A DNA stretch of 64,000 bases from Mycolicibacterium phocaicum (GTDB lineage: Bacteria; Actinomycetota; Actinomycetes; Mycobacteriales; Mycobacteriaceae), in the NCBI RefSeq assembly GCF_010731115.1, contig NZ_AP022616.1, positions 5,456,001-5,520,000 on the forward strand, in the 5' to 3' direction. The notes beneath the pieces were generated by a model. The model had not been told where the DNA came from and searched no databases. It saw nothing but the letters and a program-made list of their open reading frames with translations. Shown here piece after piece: positions 55,288 through 62,694 of this stretch. The translations under genes were made by a program, and so were the position numbers. How positions within the stretch are numbered: position 1 is the stretch's first letter; each line of letters opens with the position of its first letter.

Positions 55288-55989
55288 TTCGATCAGCGTC
55301 CCGCATCTGCGACACGCTTGCCCGGCCCGGCCGTACACCCAGAGTTGACGGCCGGGTCGGGTATCGCCCGTTGTGGTCCTGCTCCATCTGTTTCTGTTCA
55401 GCCACAACATGTCCCGGGCCCGCTGCGCCAGCCGCAGCGGGTCTTTCACTGTGCCGACCGGGGCCGTCGGGCGGCGGCCGACAATGAAGCACAGCTCATT
55501 GGCGTAGACGTTGCCGACGCCCGCGAGGTTGCGTTGGTCGAGTAGTGCTTCGTGCAGCGGCCGGTCGGGGAGCTGGGTGAGGTTCTGCGCTGCTCGGTGC
55601 GGATCCCAGTCCGGGCCAAGGAGATCGGGGCCGAGGTGTTTGACGGGTTCGTCGTCGTGGTCCCGGTGGAGGACTTCCAGGGTGCCCAGTTCGGAGCCCA
55701 CCGCCTGAATATCCTTGGTTTCCAGGATGATCCGGGTCTTGTGATCGGGGCGGCGGGGCCTGGTGTTGACCTGCCACTTGCCCTCCATCTTGAGGTGCGA
55801 GTGGATGCTGGCCTCGGCCGTGCGGATGAACAGGTGCTTACCCCGGCTGATGACTTCGTCGACCGTCTGGCCGGTGAGGTCGACGGTGGCGAACTTCGGG
55901 ACGCGAATGTCGCAGCGCGTCAGCATCTTTCCCTGCAGCGCCGCGCGGAGGATGGCCGCGGTGTGCCAGACGGTGTCACCTTCGGGCAT
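55189..55989 (-). CDS. nei: Endonuclease VIII-type DNA glycosylase (Nei2)
   Basis: 266 residues. The N-terminal [11 protein letters not shown] supplies catalytic Pro2 and Glu3; ISRGKHLFI contains the conserved Lys; [20 protein letters not shown] is the helix-two-turn-helix. The zinc finger is complete with CRRC and a final CPLC. It removes oxidised pyrimidines in base-excision repair. Its start shares one base with the stop of the nitronate-monooxygenase-like gene (TGATG). Its 3' end overlaps the desaturase gene. Confidence 0.94.
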
Positions 55990-56960
55990 CAGCGGATGTA
56001 GGCGTTGGCCCGGGCCAGCGCGCGTTCGGCATCGTGCGCGATCTTCTGAACCAGGTCGCTTGCGAGTTCCAGCTCATCGATGAGGTCGAGGGCCTCGCCG
56101 GCCCAGATGGGGACGTAATCCATGTCCATCTTGGCTGCCCGGTCGCGGAACTCCTGTTTCGCTTTGGGATCTGCGTCGAGCTCGGCGTCGCGGTCCTGCC
56201 ACTCGTCGGTGAAGACGCTGCGCAAGGTGCGCGCCGGATACTCGGCCGGCCAACGCGTTTCGACGGGCCGGGCCGCGATGTCGATGGCCCGGCCGCTGGT
56301 GGTGTCCGCCGCCCTGGCCTTGAGCATGACCTTCGACTCGGCGGCGCTGAGCAGGGACTCGTGGGTGGCTTCGAATCGGGTGCCGATCATGGCGCCCGCG
56401 GCGCCGAGGGTCAGTGCCGCGGCCAGACCGCGGCCGTCGGCGATGCCACCGGCCGCCAGGACCGGAACGTCGTGGGCCAGGTCGACGACGGCGGGGACGA
56501 ACGGCAGCGTCGACCGGCCGCCGTGGTGCCCCCCGGCCTCCCGGCCCTGCGCGACCAGAACCTGGACTCCGGCGTCGAGCGCCTGCTTGGCCTCATCGAG
56601 GGTGTGGACCTGGGACAGCAGCGGGATTCCGGCGTCGTGGATGGCTTTGGCGAACGGGGCCGGGTCGCCGAACGACAAGATGATGGCGGCGGGCTGCTGC
56701 GCGATGACCCAGCCGATGATCTCCGGAGTCACCGCCCACGTGAGTAGACCCACGCCCCAGGGCTTTTCGGTGCCCTGCTTGGCCAGTTGGCATTCGGTGG
56801 CGAGCATGGTCAGGTCACCGCGGCCGCCACCGATCAGACCCAGTCCGCCGCCCTCGGACACCGCGGCGGCCAGCCGGCCACCGGATACGTCGCCCATCGG
56901 GGCCAGGACGATCGGGTGGTCGATGCCGAACAGTTCGGTGAGCGGGGTGTGCAGGGCCAT
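55989..56960 (-). CDS. Nitronate monooxygenase family FMN protein
   Basis: 323 residues in a TIM barrel: [34 protein letters not shown] (FMN phosphate region), [22 protein letters not shown] (with the catalytic-type His) and [32 protein letters not shown]. Family enzymes oxidise nitronates such as propionate 3-nitronate to aldehydes or acids. It is coupled to nei by a one-base overlap. A paralogue lies at 61325. The upstream gap to the MerR fusion holds a large palindrome (57017-57091). Confidence 0.88.
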
Positions 56961-57016: not shown

Positions 57017-57091
57017 CCCTACGGCGAGTGTGCAGCTTCGGAGCGATCTGGCCACGTGAACGCGGACAACAACTGCACACTCGCCATAGGG
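57017..57091. repeat. Long inverted repeat between divergent genes
   Basis: 19-base arms (57017-57035 and 57073-57091; CCCTACGGCGAGTGTGCAG on the left) with one mismatch and a 37-base spacer. It lies between the divergent nitronate monooxygenase and MerR-peroxiredoxin genes. Too long for a simple regulator site; it looks like a dispersed repeat or hairpin. Confidence 0.75.
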
Positions 57092-57129
57092 CCGGGGATC
57101 GGTGTCAATGGATCCAGCGGGTCGGAAAT

Positions 57130-57161
57130 TTGACCTTGCCCCTGGCGGCAATGTTTACCCT
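57130..57161 (+). promoter_or_regulatory. MerR-type promoter of the MerR-peroxiredoxin gene
   Basis: TTGACC (57130-57135) and TACCCT (57156-57161) are 20 bases apart, longer than the normal 17 and typical of MerR-activated promoters. Between them lies TTGCC-N6-GGCAA (57136-57151), a dyad where a MerR dimer would bind. A GAGGA ribosome-binding site follows, then ATG at 57182. Confidence 0.65.
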
Positions 57162-57181
57162 CTGGGCTGAGGACATTGACC

Positions 57182-58126
57182 ATGCAGATTTCTGAGCTGG
57201 CCCGGCTGACGGGCGCGTCGACCAAGGCCGTGCGGTACTACGAGGACCTCGGCCTCCTGGAGCCGTCGCGCCTGGCCAACGGCTATCGGGACTATTCCGA
57301 AGAGGACGTCCAGATCGTCAGCGAGGTGCGTGCGCTGGCCGCGGTGGGCATCGCCCCGTCGAAGGCCGGGCCGTTCATCGACTGCCTGCGCCACGGCCAC
57401 GAACACAGCGACGAGTGCCCCGAGTCGCTGGCGGCGTATCGCGACAGCATCGCGGTTCTCGACGAGACCATCGCGGCGTTGACGCAGCGACGACAGGTCC
57501 TCACGGCGCGGCTCAACGCTGCCGCGTGCCGCGAATTCGACAAGGAGTACGAGCAGGTGACGGACTACACGACGCTTCCCGCGGGCCTCCCGGTTCCCGA
57601 AAATGACGGCGCGGCCGACCATCTGGTGGGACTGCGGGTACCCGATATCACGCTGAAGTCCAGCGGTGGTGGCCCCGTCCACCTTCGGAGCCTGCCGATG
57701 GGACGGACGATTCTGTATCTGTACCCGCTCACCGGTCGTCCCGGCACCGACCTCCCCGAAGGGTGGGACGCGATACCAGGAGCGCGTGGCTGTTCGACGG
57801 AGGCATGCGATTTCCGCGACCACTTCGCCGAGCTGAAAGACGCCGGTGCAGAAGAGGTCTGGGGCCTTTCCAGCCAGGACGTCGACTATCAGGCGGAAGT
57901 GGTGCGGCGGCTGCGGCTGCCGTTCCACATGCTGTCCGATGAGACGTTCGCGCTGGCCGAGGCGCTACGGCTCCCGACGTTCGCCGCCGACGGACATCCC
58001 CGGCTTTACACCCGGCTCACCATGGTGATCCGCGACGGCCGCATCGAGCACGTCTTCTACCCGATCTTCCCGCCGAACACACATGCGCAGCAGGTGCTGG
58101 ACTGGTTGCGCGCACATCCGGTGTAG
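57182..58126 (+). CDS. MerR-family regulator fused to a BCP/PrxQ-type peroxiredoxin
   Basis: 314 residues from the ATG at 57182 (TTG at 57176 adds two). Residues 1-70 are a MerR DNA-binding domain (ISELARLTGASTKAVRYYEDLGLL, then NGYRDYSEEDV). A dimerisation helix with two extra cysteines (C68 in FIDCLRHG, C79 in DECPES) and C116 follow. From about 145 a thioredoxin-fold peroxiredoxin begins (VGLRVPDITLKSSGGGPVHL), with the active site GCSTEACDF: C204 as peroxidatic and C209 as resolving Cys in the BCP CX4C layout. A redox enzyme fused to its own DNA-binding domain suggests a one-protein peroxide sensor. Neighbours are unrelated in function. Confidence 0.85.
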   Translation: MQISELARLTGASTKAVRYYEDLGLLEPSRLANGYRDYSEEDVQIVSEVRALAAVGIAPSKAGPFIDCLRHGHEHSDECPESLAAYRDSIAVLDETIAALTQRRQVLTARLNAAACREFDKEYEQVTDYTTLPAGLPVPENDGAADHLVGLRVPDITLKSSGGGPVHLRSLPMGRTILYLYPLTGRPGTDLPEGWDAIPGARGCSTEACDFRDHFAELKDAGAEEVWGLSSQDVDYQAEVVRRLRLPFHMLSDETFALAEALRLPTFAADGHPRLYTRLTMVIRDGRIEHVFYPIFPPNTHAQQVLDWLRAHPV

Positions 58127-61324: not shown

Positions 61325-62305
61325 CTACTTCGCGGCCTCGGACAGTCTTCCGAAAATGGTGGCGGACTCTCGCGCCATGCGTGCCAGCACCTCAGCTGCA
61401 GTCGGATTGTCATGGATCATGCCGACACCTTCGCCGATATGAACCTCAGCGGTGTCGAAGTCTGACGCTTCGACCGCGGCGCGGTAATCACGCTGGAGCT
61501 CAGCGAGATTGGCGCGTAGCGCGTCCTCGGTCCCATACCAGCGGCTGACGAAATCATTGCGCAAAGCGCGACCACCGTAGCCCTGCGGCCACGGATAGCC
61601 GCGCACGATGTCGAACACGGTTGAGCGAATGGTGTCGTCGGAGCCTGCGGCGATGGCGCGCTCCCGGGCCACTGGGTTAACCGGCGACTCCTGCACCGCC
61701 CACAGCCTGGAGCCGGCGAGGGCTCCGTCAGCACCGAGCGAGAGTGCCGCCGCAAGGCCACGACCGTCGGCGATGCCTCCGGCGGCGAGGACAAGGGTAT
61801 CCGGTGCCCGGTCGGCGACCAGGTCGGCGACCTCCGGGACCAGGGTGAAGGTGGAACGAATCCCCTTACCGTGACCACCCGCTTCGCCGCCTTGCGCAAT
61901 CAGTACGTCAGCTCCGATGTCGACGCCGCGTCGTGCCTCTTCCAGATCGTTGACCTGATTGAACAGAGGAACATTCGCATTGCGAATCTTCGACGCGAAC
62001 GGCGTGGGATCGCCGAATGAGAGCGCTACAGCAGCGGGGTTGTGTGCGAGTACTGCATCCAATAGCTCCGGGCGTTGAGCGAGCTTCCAGGCGATGAAGC
62101 CGACGCCGATGCGGGTATCTCCAGCCGTGGCGAACTGTGCATTGAGCCAGGCGGCATCGTCATAGCCGGCGCCCAACAGTCCGAGACCGCCTGCCTTTGT
62201 GACTGCGGCGGCCAAGCGGCCATCGGCGAACTTGGCCATCGGGGCCAGCACGACGGGCACTGACAGGCCGAACCTCGAAGTGAGTCTCGTCGTGATCATG
62301 TTCAC
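61325..62305 (-). CDS. Nitronate monooxygenase family protein, second copy
   Basis: 326 residues from the GTG at 62305, which makes a GTGA overlap with the tautomerase stop; an ATG two codons later (62299) is the alternative. FMN TIM barrel: VPVVLAPMAKFADGRLAAAVTKAGGLGLLGAGY, ALSFGDPTPFA, IAQGGEAGGHGKG and [31 protein letters not shown]. It is only moderately similar to the copy at 55989. Being operonic with a tautomerase suggests a small catabolic or detoxification unit. Confidence 0.86.
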   Translation of the reverse strand: MNMITTRLTSRFGLSVPVVLAPMAKFADGRLAAAVTKAGGLGLLGAGYDDAAWLNAQFATAGDTRIGVGFIAWKLAQRPELLDAVLAHNPAAVALSFGDPTPFASKIRNANVPLFNQVNDLEEARRGVDIGADVLIAQGGEAGGHGKGIRSTFTLVPEVADLVADRAPDTLVLAAGGIADGRGLAAALSLGADGALAGSRLWAVQESPVNPVARERAIAAGSDDTIRSTVFDIVRGYPWPQGYGGRALRNDFVSRWYGTEDALRANLAELQRDYRAAVEASDFDTAEVHIGEGVGMIHDNPTAAEVLARMARESATIFGRLSEAAK

Positions 62306-62694
62306 GCGAGTTCGCCGGTGACAAACTGTGCCCGGCCCGCGCCGAACGACCAATCGGCGTCGCCGTTTTCGGTGATCGACACGATCAGGTCTTTGGCGTC
62401 CAAACCGCAGTCCCTATGCAGGTGCTCGGCCAGCAGCTCGTAGAACCGCTGCTTCATCTCTGCGGTGCGGCGGCGGCTGACCACCTGGATGATCACTAGC
62501 TGGTCTGATCGTTCGAATCCCAGTCCAGTGTCTTGCGCGACAACGTCATCGGGCTCGCGGACGTCGACGACCTGGTAGCGGTCCCGTTCGGGGATGCCGA
62601 ACGCCTCCACAACAGCCCGGTGGGCGCTGTCCAGCAGCTGACGGAGTTCTTCGGGGGTGCGGCCCCGGATCACGGTGATGTTGAGCAATGGCAT
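62302..62694 (-). CDS. Tautomerase family protein
   Basis: 130 residues from the ATG at 62694, so that Met removal exposes Pro2 (MPLLNITVIRGR), the catalytic base of the 4-oxalocrotonate tautomerase/MIF fold. RYQVVDVREPDDVV and LVIIQVVSRRRTAEMKQRFYELLAEHL fit two-repeat members. It is first in a two-gene operon with the nitronate monooxygenase homologue. The palindrome at 62733-62747 lies 38 bases upstream of the start, in the likely promoter. Confidence 0.83.
   Translation of the reverse strand: MPLLNITVIRGRTPEELRQLLDSAHRAVVEAFGIPERDRYQVVDVREPDDVVAQDTGLGFERSDQLVIIQVVSRRRTAEMKQRFYELLAEHLHRDCGLDAKDLIVSITENGDADWSFGAGRAQFVTGELA

Follow-up and report, generated by a model that had tools for sequence, protein, structure and literature searches.

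MerR-type transcriptional regulators are described, in the portions of the review PMC9909328 considered here, as sensing metals, drugs and redox signals through small sites or drug pockets. The 64,000 nt stretch of the Mycolicibacterium phocaicum genome that was analysed in this study, and to which we refer as the window, contains a reading frame in which a MerR DNA-binding domain is joined to a redoxin domain. This arrangement raises the question of whether a regulator and an enzyme can form a single device that senses an oxidant as well as removing it, and by which cysteines the signal would then pass from one half to the other. The original prediction regarded the protein as a peroxide sensor in which oxidation of the peroxidatic cysteine acts directly on promoter DNA. 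Our analysis favours, with a probability of roughly 0.6, a different reading, namely that the locus is a self-contained, autoregulated redox module resembling TipA, which would combine one operator, two products and a relay from a cysteine pair in the redoxin half (C204/C209) to another pair in the MerR half (C68/C79).

The gene itself is described by two features, of which the first was delimited by its uninterrupted frame, Pfam and its relatives, and the second by Pfam (MerR_1/MerR) and an alignment with CueR:

57182..58126, forward strand: MerR + redoxin fusion gene encoding 314 aa
57182..57535, forward strand: MerR half, residues 1-118, with the helix-turn-helix (HTH), the C68-x10-C79 pair and the dimerisation helix

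The frame runs from the ATG at 57182 to the stop at 58126 without any internal stop codon. Pfam places MerR_1 at residues 1-58 (E 3e-14) and Redoxin at residues 149-301 (E 9e-13), both above the gathering score, and AhpC-TSA is also matched in the redoxin half (PF08534/PF00578). The MerR half aligns over residues 1-114 with CueR, its best structure match, while structures of BCP/PrxQ peroxiredoxins match the redoxin half mainly downstream from the first active-site cysteine. Two sets of relatives underlie most of the following counts: 242 distinct full-length fusions of at least 270 residues (window included), which were drawn from best-hit lists and are hence a non-random sample, and 81 fusion loci, i.e. 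the window and the best 80 of at least 541 GTDB relatives, chosen as best full-length hits. An ATG or GTG occupies the codon of 57182 in 80 of the 81 aligned loci, including the window; the list of open reading frames gives TTG at 57176. The predicted union of MerR and redoxin in one intact frame is thus confirmed, and the 242 distinct full-length fusions rule out that a frameshift or an assembly error has joined two genes.

A literature search of open-access PMC found no paper on a MerR-peroxiredoxin fusion, in agreement with the initial statement that no characterised example was known, and the portions considered of PMC9416670, PMC7762955, PMC9909328, PMC6078987, PMC5361795 and PMC7950203 do not describe one. 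Proteins of this kind are already named in databases. Among 8000 candidates scored in a protein search, 3408 were relatives of either half, and the best 120 of these 3408 share 62-97% identity with the query across 94-100% of its length, their names (where the source gave one) being MerR regulator, redoxin, peroxiredoxin or 'peroxiredoxin/DNA-binding transcriptional MerR regulator'.

The fusion is widespread, and its occurrence is uneven. A scan of GTDB species genomes confirmed at least 541 relatives among 597 stretches, the best 80 of which come from Mycobacterium/Mycolicibacterium, Nocardia, Streptomyces, Leucobacter, Leifsonia, Brevibacterium and others, and include one Sporosarcina and one Acidobacteria MAG. 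Of 297 genomes from the window's own genus, 17 gave a match at E 1e-50; 11 of them carry the complete fusion, and in the other 6 only the peroxiredoxin part matches. A Streptomyces-like genus yielded matches in 31 of 295 genomes (27 fusions, one of them aligned only up to residue 285, 1 match in part and 3 of the peroxiredoxin part alone). An even draw across the phylum (E 1e-15) gave matches in 55 of 396 genomes, of which just 2 carry the fusion, while in the other 53 the match is limited to the peroxiredoxin half (42) or to the MerR half (9), or both halves are encoded by separate genes (2). Finally, matches were present in 49 plasmid records; in 6 of these, all from Streptomyces, they extend over 80% or more of the query, at 49-58% identity. 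These genus and phylum counts, together with the plasmid copies, suggest that the fusion gene is patchily distributed and probably mobile.

How such a gene is controlled can be approached from the sequence directly in front of it, where a candidate regulatory site is found:

57130..57161, forward strand: candidate autoregulatory MerR-type operator/promoter, consisting of TTGACC, a 20-base spacer with the dyad TTGCC..GGCAA, and TACCCT (TANNNT)

TTGACC starts at 57130 and TACCCT ends at 57161. MerR-type promoters are recognised by a spacer of 19-20 bases with a central dyad, and the original prediction of such a promoter, with 20 bases, holds well beyond the window: TTGACCtTgCCCccggGGGCAaGGTTTAgCGT lies upstream of 80 of the 81 fusion genes, with a gap of exactly 20 bases between TTGACN and TANNNT, and the 81st locus (L038) has a similar upstream sequence that the search pattern missed. 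In 72 of these 80 loci, the distance from the end of the operator to the start codon is 16-21 nt. Further fusions have operator scores of 29 to 56 in a position weight matrix (PWM), with the exception of L161 (11.5). A search for inverted repeats with arms of at least 8 bases found none at 57040-57200, because the arms of the dyad are shorter.

The same site is hardly seen elsewhere. Its 28-base core occurs a single time in the 5.85 Mb of the window's own genome, and among 35 genome rows the 32-base site was found once in 27, not at all in 8 and twice in none (G238 and G476, which coincide in position, evidently represent a single genome; L043 was left out), the mismatch limit of all genome-wide searches being 3. 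When 1.04 Mb, made up of the entire window plus the 81 loci and their flanking DNA, was scanned with the PWM, the only hits were the promoters of the fusion genes themselves and, for some of these, the opposite strand of the site, and the standalone peroxiredoxins L159, L162, L163, L173-L176, L007 and L008 have no operator within 600 nt upstream (PWM < 0). Neighbouring reading frames were clustered (ORFs with a minimum length of 90 aa and a minimum GC3 of 0.75, up to 4.5 kb from the 81 loci), and the only clusters shared by more than 6 of 81 loci, found in 14 and 8 loci, overlap the fusion gene in antisense, so that there is no constant neighbour which could be another target. A wider regulon is therefore ruled out within the 1.04 Mb PWM scan, and no second site appears in the 35 genome rows (8 of which have none at all). 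Given that the operator is found once in its own genome and never twice in the 35 rows, the gene seems to regulate mainly itself, with no other strong site, and judging from these patterns its autoregulation is very highly probable.

The surroundings of the gene show some features of their own. Two nitronate monooxygenase (NMO) genes (PF03060) lie in the window at 55989-56960 and 61325-62353, both inside a section of about 6.4 kb. Among 90 loci searched, NMO and thiolase genes adjoin the fusion in L009, L010, L164, L166 and L167, and NMO alone in L165; these neighbours are limited to the window's closest relatives. The DNA that separates the fusion promoter from the divergent NMO gene contains a 17-base inverted repeat (57019-57035 and 57073-57089, 16 of 17 positions matching, 37-base gap), which recurs at just three places elsewhere in the genome with 2 mismatches and might serve the NMO gene as operator or as hairpin. 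Five of 81 loci (L014, L026, L032, L051, L069) have a dihydrodipicolinate synthase-like gene, recognised by eye, downstream of the fusion and in the same orientation, and on a Streptomyces plasmid (L179:5015-5914) an annotated gene of the dihydrodipicolinate synthase family lies downstream of the fusion.

The redox chemistry of the protein would presumably involve two sites, the first defined by conservation among the 242 fusions and the second additionally by alignment to BCP/PrxQ structures:

57383..57418, forward strand: codons 68-79, the invariant cysteine pair with G72
57791..57808, forward strand: C204-STEA-C209, the presumed peroxidatic and resolving cysteines

The cysteines initially listed (C204 and C209 in a CX4C arrangement, and C68, C79 and C116 as extra cysteines of a linker helix) are all at their assigned positions. 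C68, C79, C204 and C209 are each retained in 242 of 242 distinct fusions and are exactly the four invariant cysteines, all others averaging 0.36 per protein; each half, in short, has an invariant pair of its own. C116, on the other hand, is kept in just 21 of 242, and is incidental and ruled out as a sensor. Alignments of 27 and of 89 sequences contain no invariant cysteine at residues 80-203. G72 is likewise found in 242 of 242 fusions, while H73 (199 of 242) and H75 (226 of 242) vary, which weakens the idea of a universal zinc site C68/H73/H75/C79. In two fusions (L154, L155) the MerR cysteine pair is one residue closer (C-x9-C) than in most.

The protein could also be a CueR/ZntR-like metal sensor to which a redoxin domain is attached. 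CueR is the best structure match of the MerR half, C68 and C79 flank two histidines (H73 and H75), and the operator half sites ACCTTGCCC/GGGCAAGGT presumably resemble CueR operators. Yet the C-terminal metal loop has no conserved cysteine besides the sporadic C116, the two histidines vary, the CueR equivalog score of 50.1 falls far below the NCBIfam cut-off of 147.4, and the gene has no conserved neighbour of any kind, so that we regard a metal sensor as very improbable.

A second possibility is the one originally predicted, in which oxidation of C204 (with C209) alone alters the DNA-binding half by conformation and C68/C79 are structural. It accords with the presence of C204 and C209 in 242 of 242 fusions and with the direct attachment of the redoxin to the dimerisation helix, and also with fusions of a related redoxin to HxlR, which have no MerR half and hence no C68/C79 pair. 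It leaves aside, however, that C68 and C79 are equally invariant, and that a cysteine pair persists at this place in relatives of the MerR half which lack any redoxin (14 of 14 loci). These two observations do not favour the view of the peroxidatic cysteine as the only sensor that acts on DNA, and we consider it quite improbable. The relay from C204/C209 to C68/C79 is preferred because both pairs are invariant and the MerR pair exists also without the enzyme.

The enzyme half is not a standard peroxiredoxin. The canonical motif of these enzymes is PxxxT(S)xxC, and BCP/PrxQ proteins have a catalytic arginine in a later strand. In the fusions, a cysteine pair of the expected spacing, the second five residues after the first, is present in 242 of 242 (C204/C209), and R278, kept in 241 of 242, presumably takes the place of the BCP arginine, with which it was matched by eye. 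By contrast, the motif itself is lacking, position -3 of C204 being alanine (A201) in 242 of 242; the nearest conserved threonine, T184 (231 Thr and 10 Ser of 242), lies 20 residues upstream of C204. Since the usual threonine is missing at -3, peroxidase activity is not assured. The fusion thus shares with BCP/PrxQ (atypical 2-Cys) peroxiredoxins the CX4C pair and the match to the redoxin profile, and differs from them in lacking Thr/Ser at -3 and in a 15-residue insertion, ending IPGARGC, which precedes C204 in the alignment to DOT5. Its scores stay below the NCBIfam cut-offs (47.6 bits against 140 for PRK09437, 40.1 against 260 for PrxQ), and the thiol-peroxidase cut-off is not reached either. 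From its sequence, the redoxin half is a divergent BCP-like redoxin.

The closest comparisons for oxidant-responsive members of the MerR family are SoxR and NmlR. SoxR has a four-cysteine cluster at the C-terminal end of its MerR half, for which the fusion, without an invariant cysteine at residues 80-203, offers no counterpart, and the SoxR score of the fusion is 27.3 against an NCBIfam cut-off of 116.9. In the portions of PMC9909328 considered, SoxR is said to use a [2Fe-2S] cluster, whereas NmlR works by thiol according to a title cited there; both respond to oxidative signals, as is presumed for the fusion. No enzyme domain is mentioned for either protein in those portions, and the words 'peroxid' and 'thioredoxin' are absent from the text of the review.

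The junction between the two halves contains signals for a second product, the enzyme in free form:

57542..57547, forward strand: internal Shine-Dalgarno sequence AAGGAG, duplex energy -7.8
57557..57559, forward strand: predicted internal start codon GTG at residue 126, from the alignment column of 81 loci
57557..58126, forward strand: predicted second product, a free peroxiredoxin of 189 aa, which begins where standalone relatives of the subfamily begin

An in-frame internal start preceded by a Shine-Dalgarno sequence is present in 70 of the 81 loci (55 ATG, 10 GTG, 5 TTG) when the strongest start-type codon within 7 codons of the junction is counted, and the fixed column of residue 126 has start-type codons in 63 of 81 (49 ATG, 9 GTG, 5 TTG); that of the window is GTG, not ATG. 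Shine-Dalgarno pairing with the 16S tail averages -7.9 in the 70 loci as opposed to -2.3 at 982 other in-frame start-type codons, comparable to the -8.25 of the primary starts. Similarly, the mRNA is open at this point, with a folding energy of -6.4 kcal/mol compared with -13.8 in other parts of the genes, -9.2 around the primary starts and -12.4 where the 11 loci that have no internal start have their junction. These statistics are taken over related sequences, and their p-values ignore ancestry. Each of 21 groups formed by genus has at least one locus with the internal start, which is missing in 5 of 9 Leucobacter and 3 of 11 Mycobacterium loci. Among close relatives, L164 and L165 keep AAGGAG and GTG, and L166-L168 and L006 have TTG. 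The absence from 11 of 81 loci means that the second product is not needed everywhere. Annotations among the matches listed give the long product only.

The internal start might nevertheless be a functionless remnant from the time before fusion, when the peroxiredoxin gene had a start codon of its own, in which case the fusion protein would be the sole product. The junction does coincide with the start of the standalone relatives, and part of the Shine-Dalgarno signal is due to the linker residues, because synonymous shuffles retain much of it (-6.8 against -7.9 in the real sequences; at the median locus 41% of the shuffles are equally strong). A relic would, however, hardly explain the choice of codons, which fits start codons and not residues: leucine at residue 126 is always encoded by TTG (5 of 5, with a background of 6.0% of Leu codons; the five come from two genera, 4 from Mycolicibacterium/Mycobacterium and 1 from Microbacterium, and are not five independent events), and valine always by GTG (9 of 9, background 43%). 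Nor would it explain that the Shine-Dalgarno is found in two codon frames, its core being distributed over the frames as 32, 32 and 2 of 70 loci (4 have no core) with linker residues poorly conserved, or that codon and Shine-Dalgarno are mostly lost jointly. Under one rule of three offsets applied to both sets, the 11 loci without an internal start have a mean pairing of -2.8 against -7.9, and the value is -4.0 or weaker in 10 of them, the remaining one, L038, still having -9.5. Moreover, the MerR halves have a single origin in a quick tree and the linker has diverged, yet start codon, Shine-Dalgarno and open mRNA persist. A dead relic is accordingly improbable; it is very likely, on these sequence signals, that the internal start is used, and the gene appears to yield a free peroxiredoxin besides the full fusion.

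The TipA genes of Streptomyces served as a positive control for these signals. In 29 of 30 Streptomyces loci measured, the best start in a 30-codon stretch was taken, a choice that favours strong sites, and TGGAGG with ATG precedes the TipAS part in 29 of 29 genes. The Shine-Dalgarno mean is -9.3 against -3.2 for 193 other codons, and mRNA folding -8.5 against -13.9. In 26 of 29 genes the highest score belongs to the TipAS ATG, at about residue 110, and in the other 3, which possess TGGAGG and ATG too, to a GTG 12 codons later. This position agrees with the published TipAS range, G111-P253, and with the two alternate in-frame products that tipA is reported to encode in the portions of PMC6078987 considered. 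There and in portions of PMC7762955, TipA is presented as a minimal system that is autoregulated and yields two translation products. Like TipA, the fusion is one gene with a MerR half and an effector half, possesses the N-terminal MerR HTH and dimerisation helix, and carries sequence signals that point to the same two properties, autoregulation and a free effector half as second in-frame product. It differs in that its effector is a redoxin (PF08534/PF00578) instead of the drug-binding TipAS domain (PF07739), which Pfam did not find in the fusion at E 1, and in that the presumed signal is an oxidant and the presumed cure catalysis, whereas TipA traps. With PF07739 missing, the fusion would work like TipA and yet be no member of the TipA class.

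In a quick tree, the 81 fusions are separated by their MerR halves from 12 standalone MerR rows, with all fusions on one side (SH-aLRT 100; the standalone rows L003, L005, L130 and L131 were left out by the start pattern). A quick peroxiredoxin tree groups the 81 fusions with 4 standalone sequences (support 92) and places the standalone peroxiredoxins from other actinobacteria outside this group. The sequences fit one fusion event followed by a few losses of the MerR half, the 4 standalone sequences having likely lost theirs later. More distant fusions (L157, L158, L160, L161) have redoxin halves 51-54% identical to that of the window and operator scores of 11-32, and AAGGAG precedes an in-frame ATG at the junction in 3 of these four. 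Separate adjacent genes as a present state were discarded, no MerR match being found beside the 28 standalone peroxiredoxins L090-L117 within flanks of up to about 1.5 kb on each side.

Both halves have relatives in other redox contexts. Standalone MerR relatives without a redoxin have a cysteine pair at the place of C68/C79 in 14 of 14 loci, and in 10 of these the motif CLRAGHxxGDxC occurs with a thioredoxin gene directly downstream (L119, L120, L121, L123-L128, L132; a dyad is seen by eye before the start). These thioredoxin-linked regulators are about 40-45% identical to the fusion's MerR half and keep C68, H73 and C79, though not H75; unlike the fusion they are unfused, their output is a thioredoxin and the core of the dyad is another. 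No paper on a MerR-thioredoxin operon stood out in a listing of open-access PMC. As for the redoxin, two Streptomyces-like genomes have an HxlR domain (PF01638) fused to a related one (L122:1746-2630, L133:1937-2812), about 41-42% identical to that of the window and with a similar insertion, seen by eye, ahead of the first cysteine, differing in the winged helix that replaces MerR and represented by the two examples seen. At the junction of L133 there are GGGAG and an in-frame ATG (2267); L122 has neither, and lacks the second cysteine. On a plasmid of Microvirga ossetica (L177:1486-2340), the same peroxiredoxin subfamily is joined to a glutaredoxin and annotated as just glutaredoxin 3. The thioredoxin-linked MerR genes and the glutaredoxin and HxlR fusions together indicate a thiol-redox background for both halves, and redoxins of this kind have, by sequence comparison, joined DNA-binding domains at least twice.

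These relatives also allow for a simpler arrangement, in which the MerR half is the whole sensor, with C68/C79 as a thiol switch (possibly for disulfide stress or electrophiles), and the peroxiredoxin merely the output of a fused operon without any relay. The cysteine pair of all 14 standalone MerR loci, 10 of them with CLRAGHxxGDxC and a thioredoxin gene, is what this would predict, and with its internal start the locus is, in formal terms, an operon of two genes. Under such an arrangement, though, the 11 of 81 fusions without an internal start would yield no free enzyme, a separate MerR might be expected beside the standalone peroxiredoxins L090-L117 and is not found within about 1.5 kb, and the fusion of a related redoxin to HxlR is rather what is expected of a redoxin that is part of the sensor. 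The presence of the fusion throughout the 81 loci does not count against it, as these loci were selected as best full-length hits. We hold a sensor confined to the MerR half to be unlikely, and slightly favour a relay that runs via the peroxiredoxin.

In the preferred reading, a cycle of the following kind would operate. One MerR-type promoter with a single operator would give rise to the full MerR-peroxiredoxin regulator and, from the internal start, to free peroxiredoxin. The resting dimer would occupy the overlong 20-base promoter. An oxidant, which is likely to be the signal, would attack C204 and lead to a C204-C209 disulfide, and the oxidation would be relayed to the C68-C79 pair of the MerR half, turning the dimer into a DNA-distorting activator. 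Both products would then increase, the free enzyme would remove the oxidant, and the reduced dimer would close the promoter again. What the sequence itself establishes is the fusion, one strong operator, four invariant cysteines and the signals of an internal start; we infer that the promoter is activated by oxidation, that the relay connects C204/C209 with C68/C79 and that the signal is of an oxidative nature. Orp1-Yap1 is a known redox relay from a peroxidase to a transcription factor. Another is Prx2-STAT3, in which a peroxiredoxin is reported to hand its oxidation to the transcription factor. Both are made of separate eukaryotic proteins, while the fusion would, by analogy, be one bacterial polypeptide.

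In its fullest form, the idea is that of a one-gene homeostat, in which a non-canonical redoxin captures the oxidation and passes it to the MerR cysteine pair, the regulator acts on the sole strong operator, the internal start frees the peroxidase, and the gene moves alone; taken together, these elements fall somewhat short of even odds. By analogy, this design would have been invented a second time in the HxlR-redoxin genes. If true, an enzyme that removes its own signal as the effector, and a second start that frees this enzyme, would extend the principle of TipA to oxidative stress. The fusion would then also be a bacterial single-chain case of a relay from peroxiredoxin to regulator, and could provide a compact reporter for oxidants.
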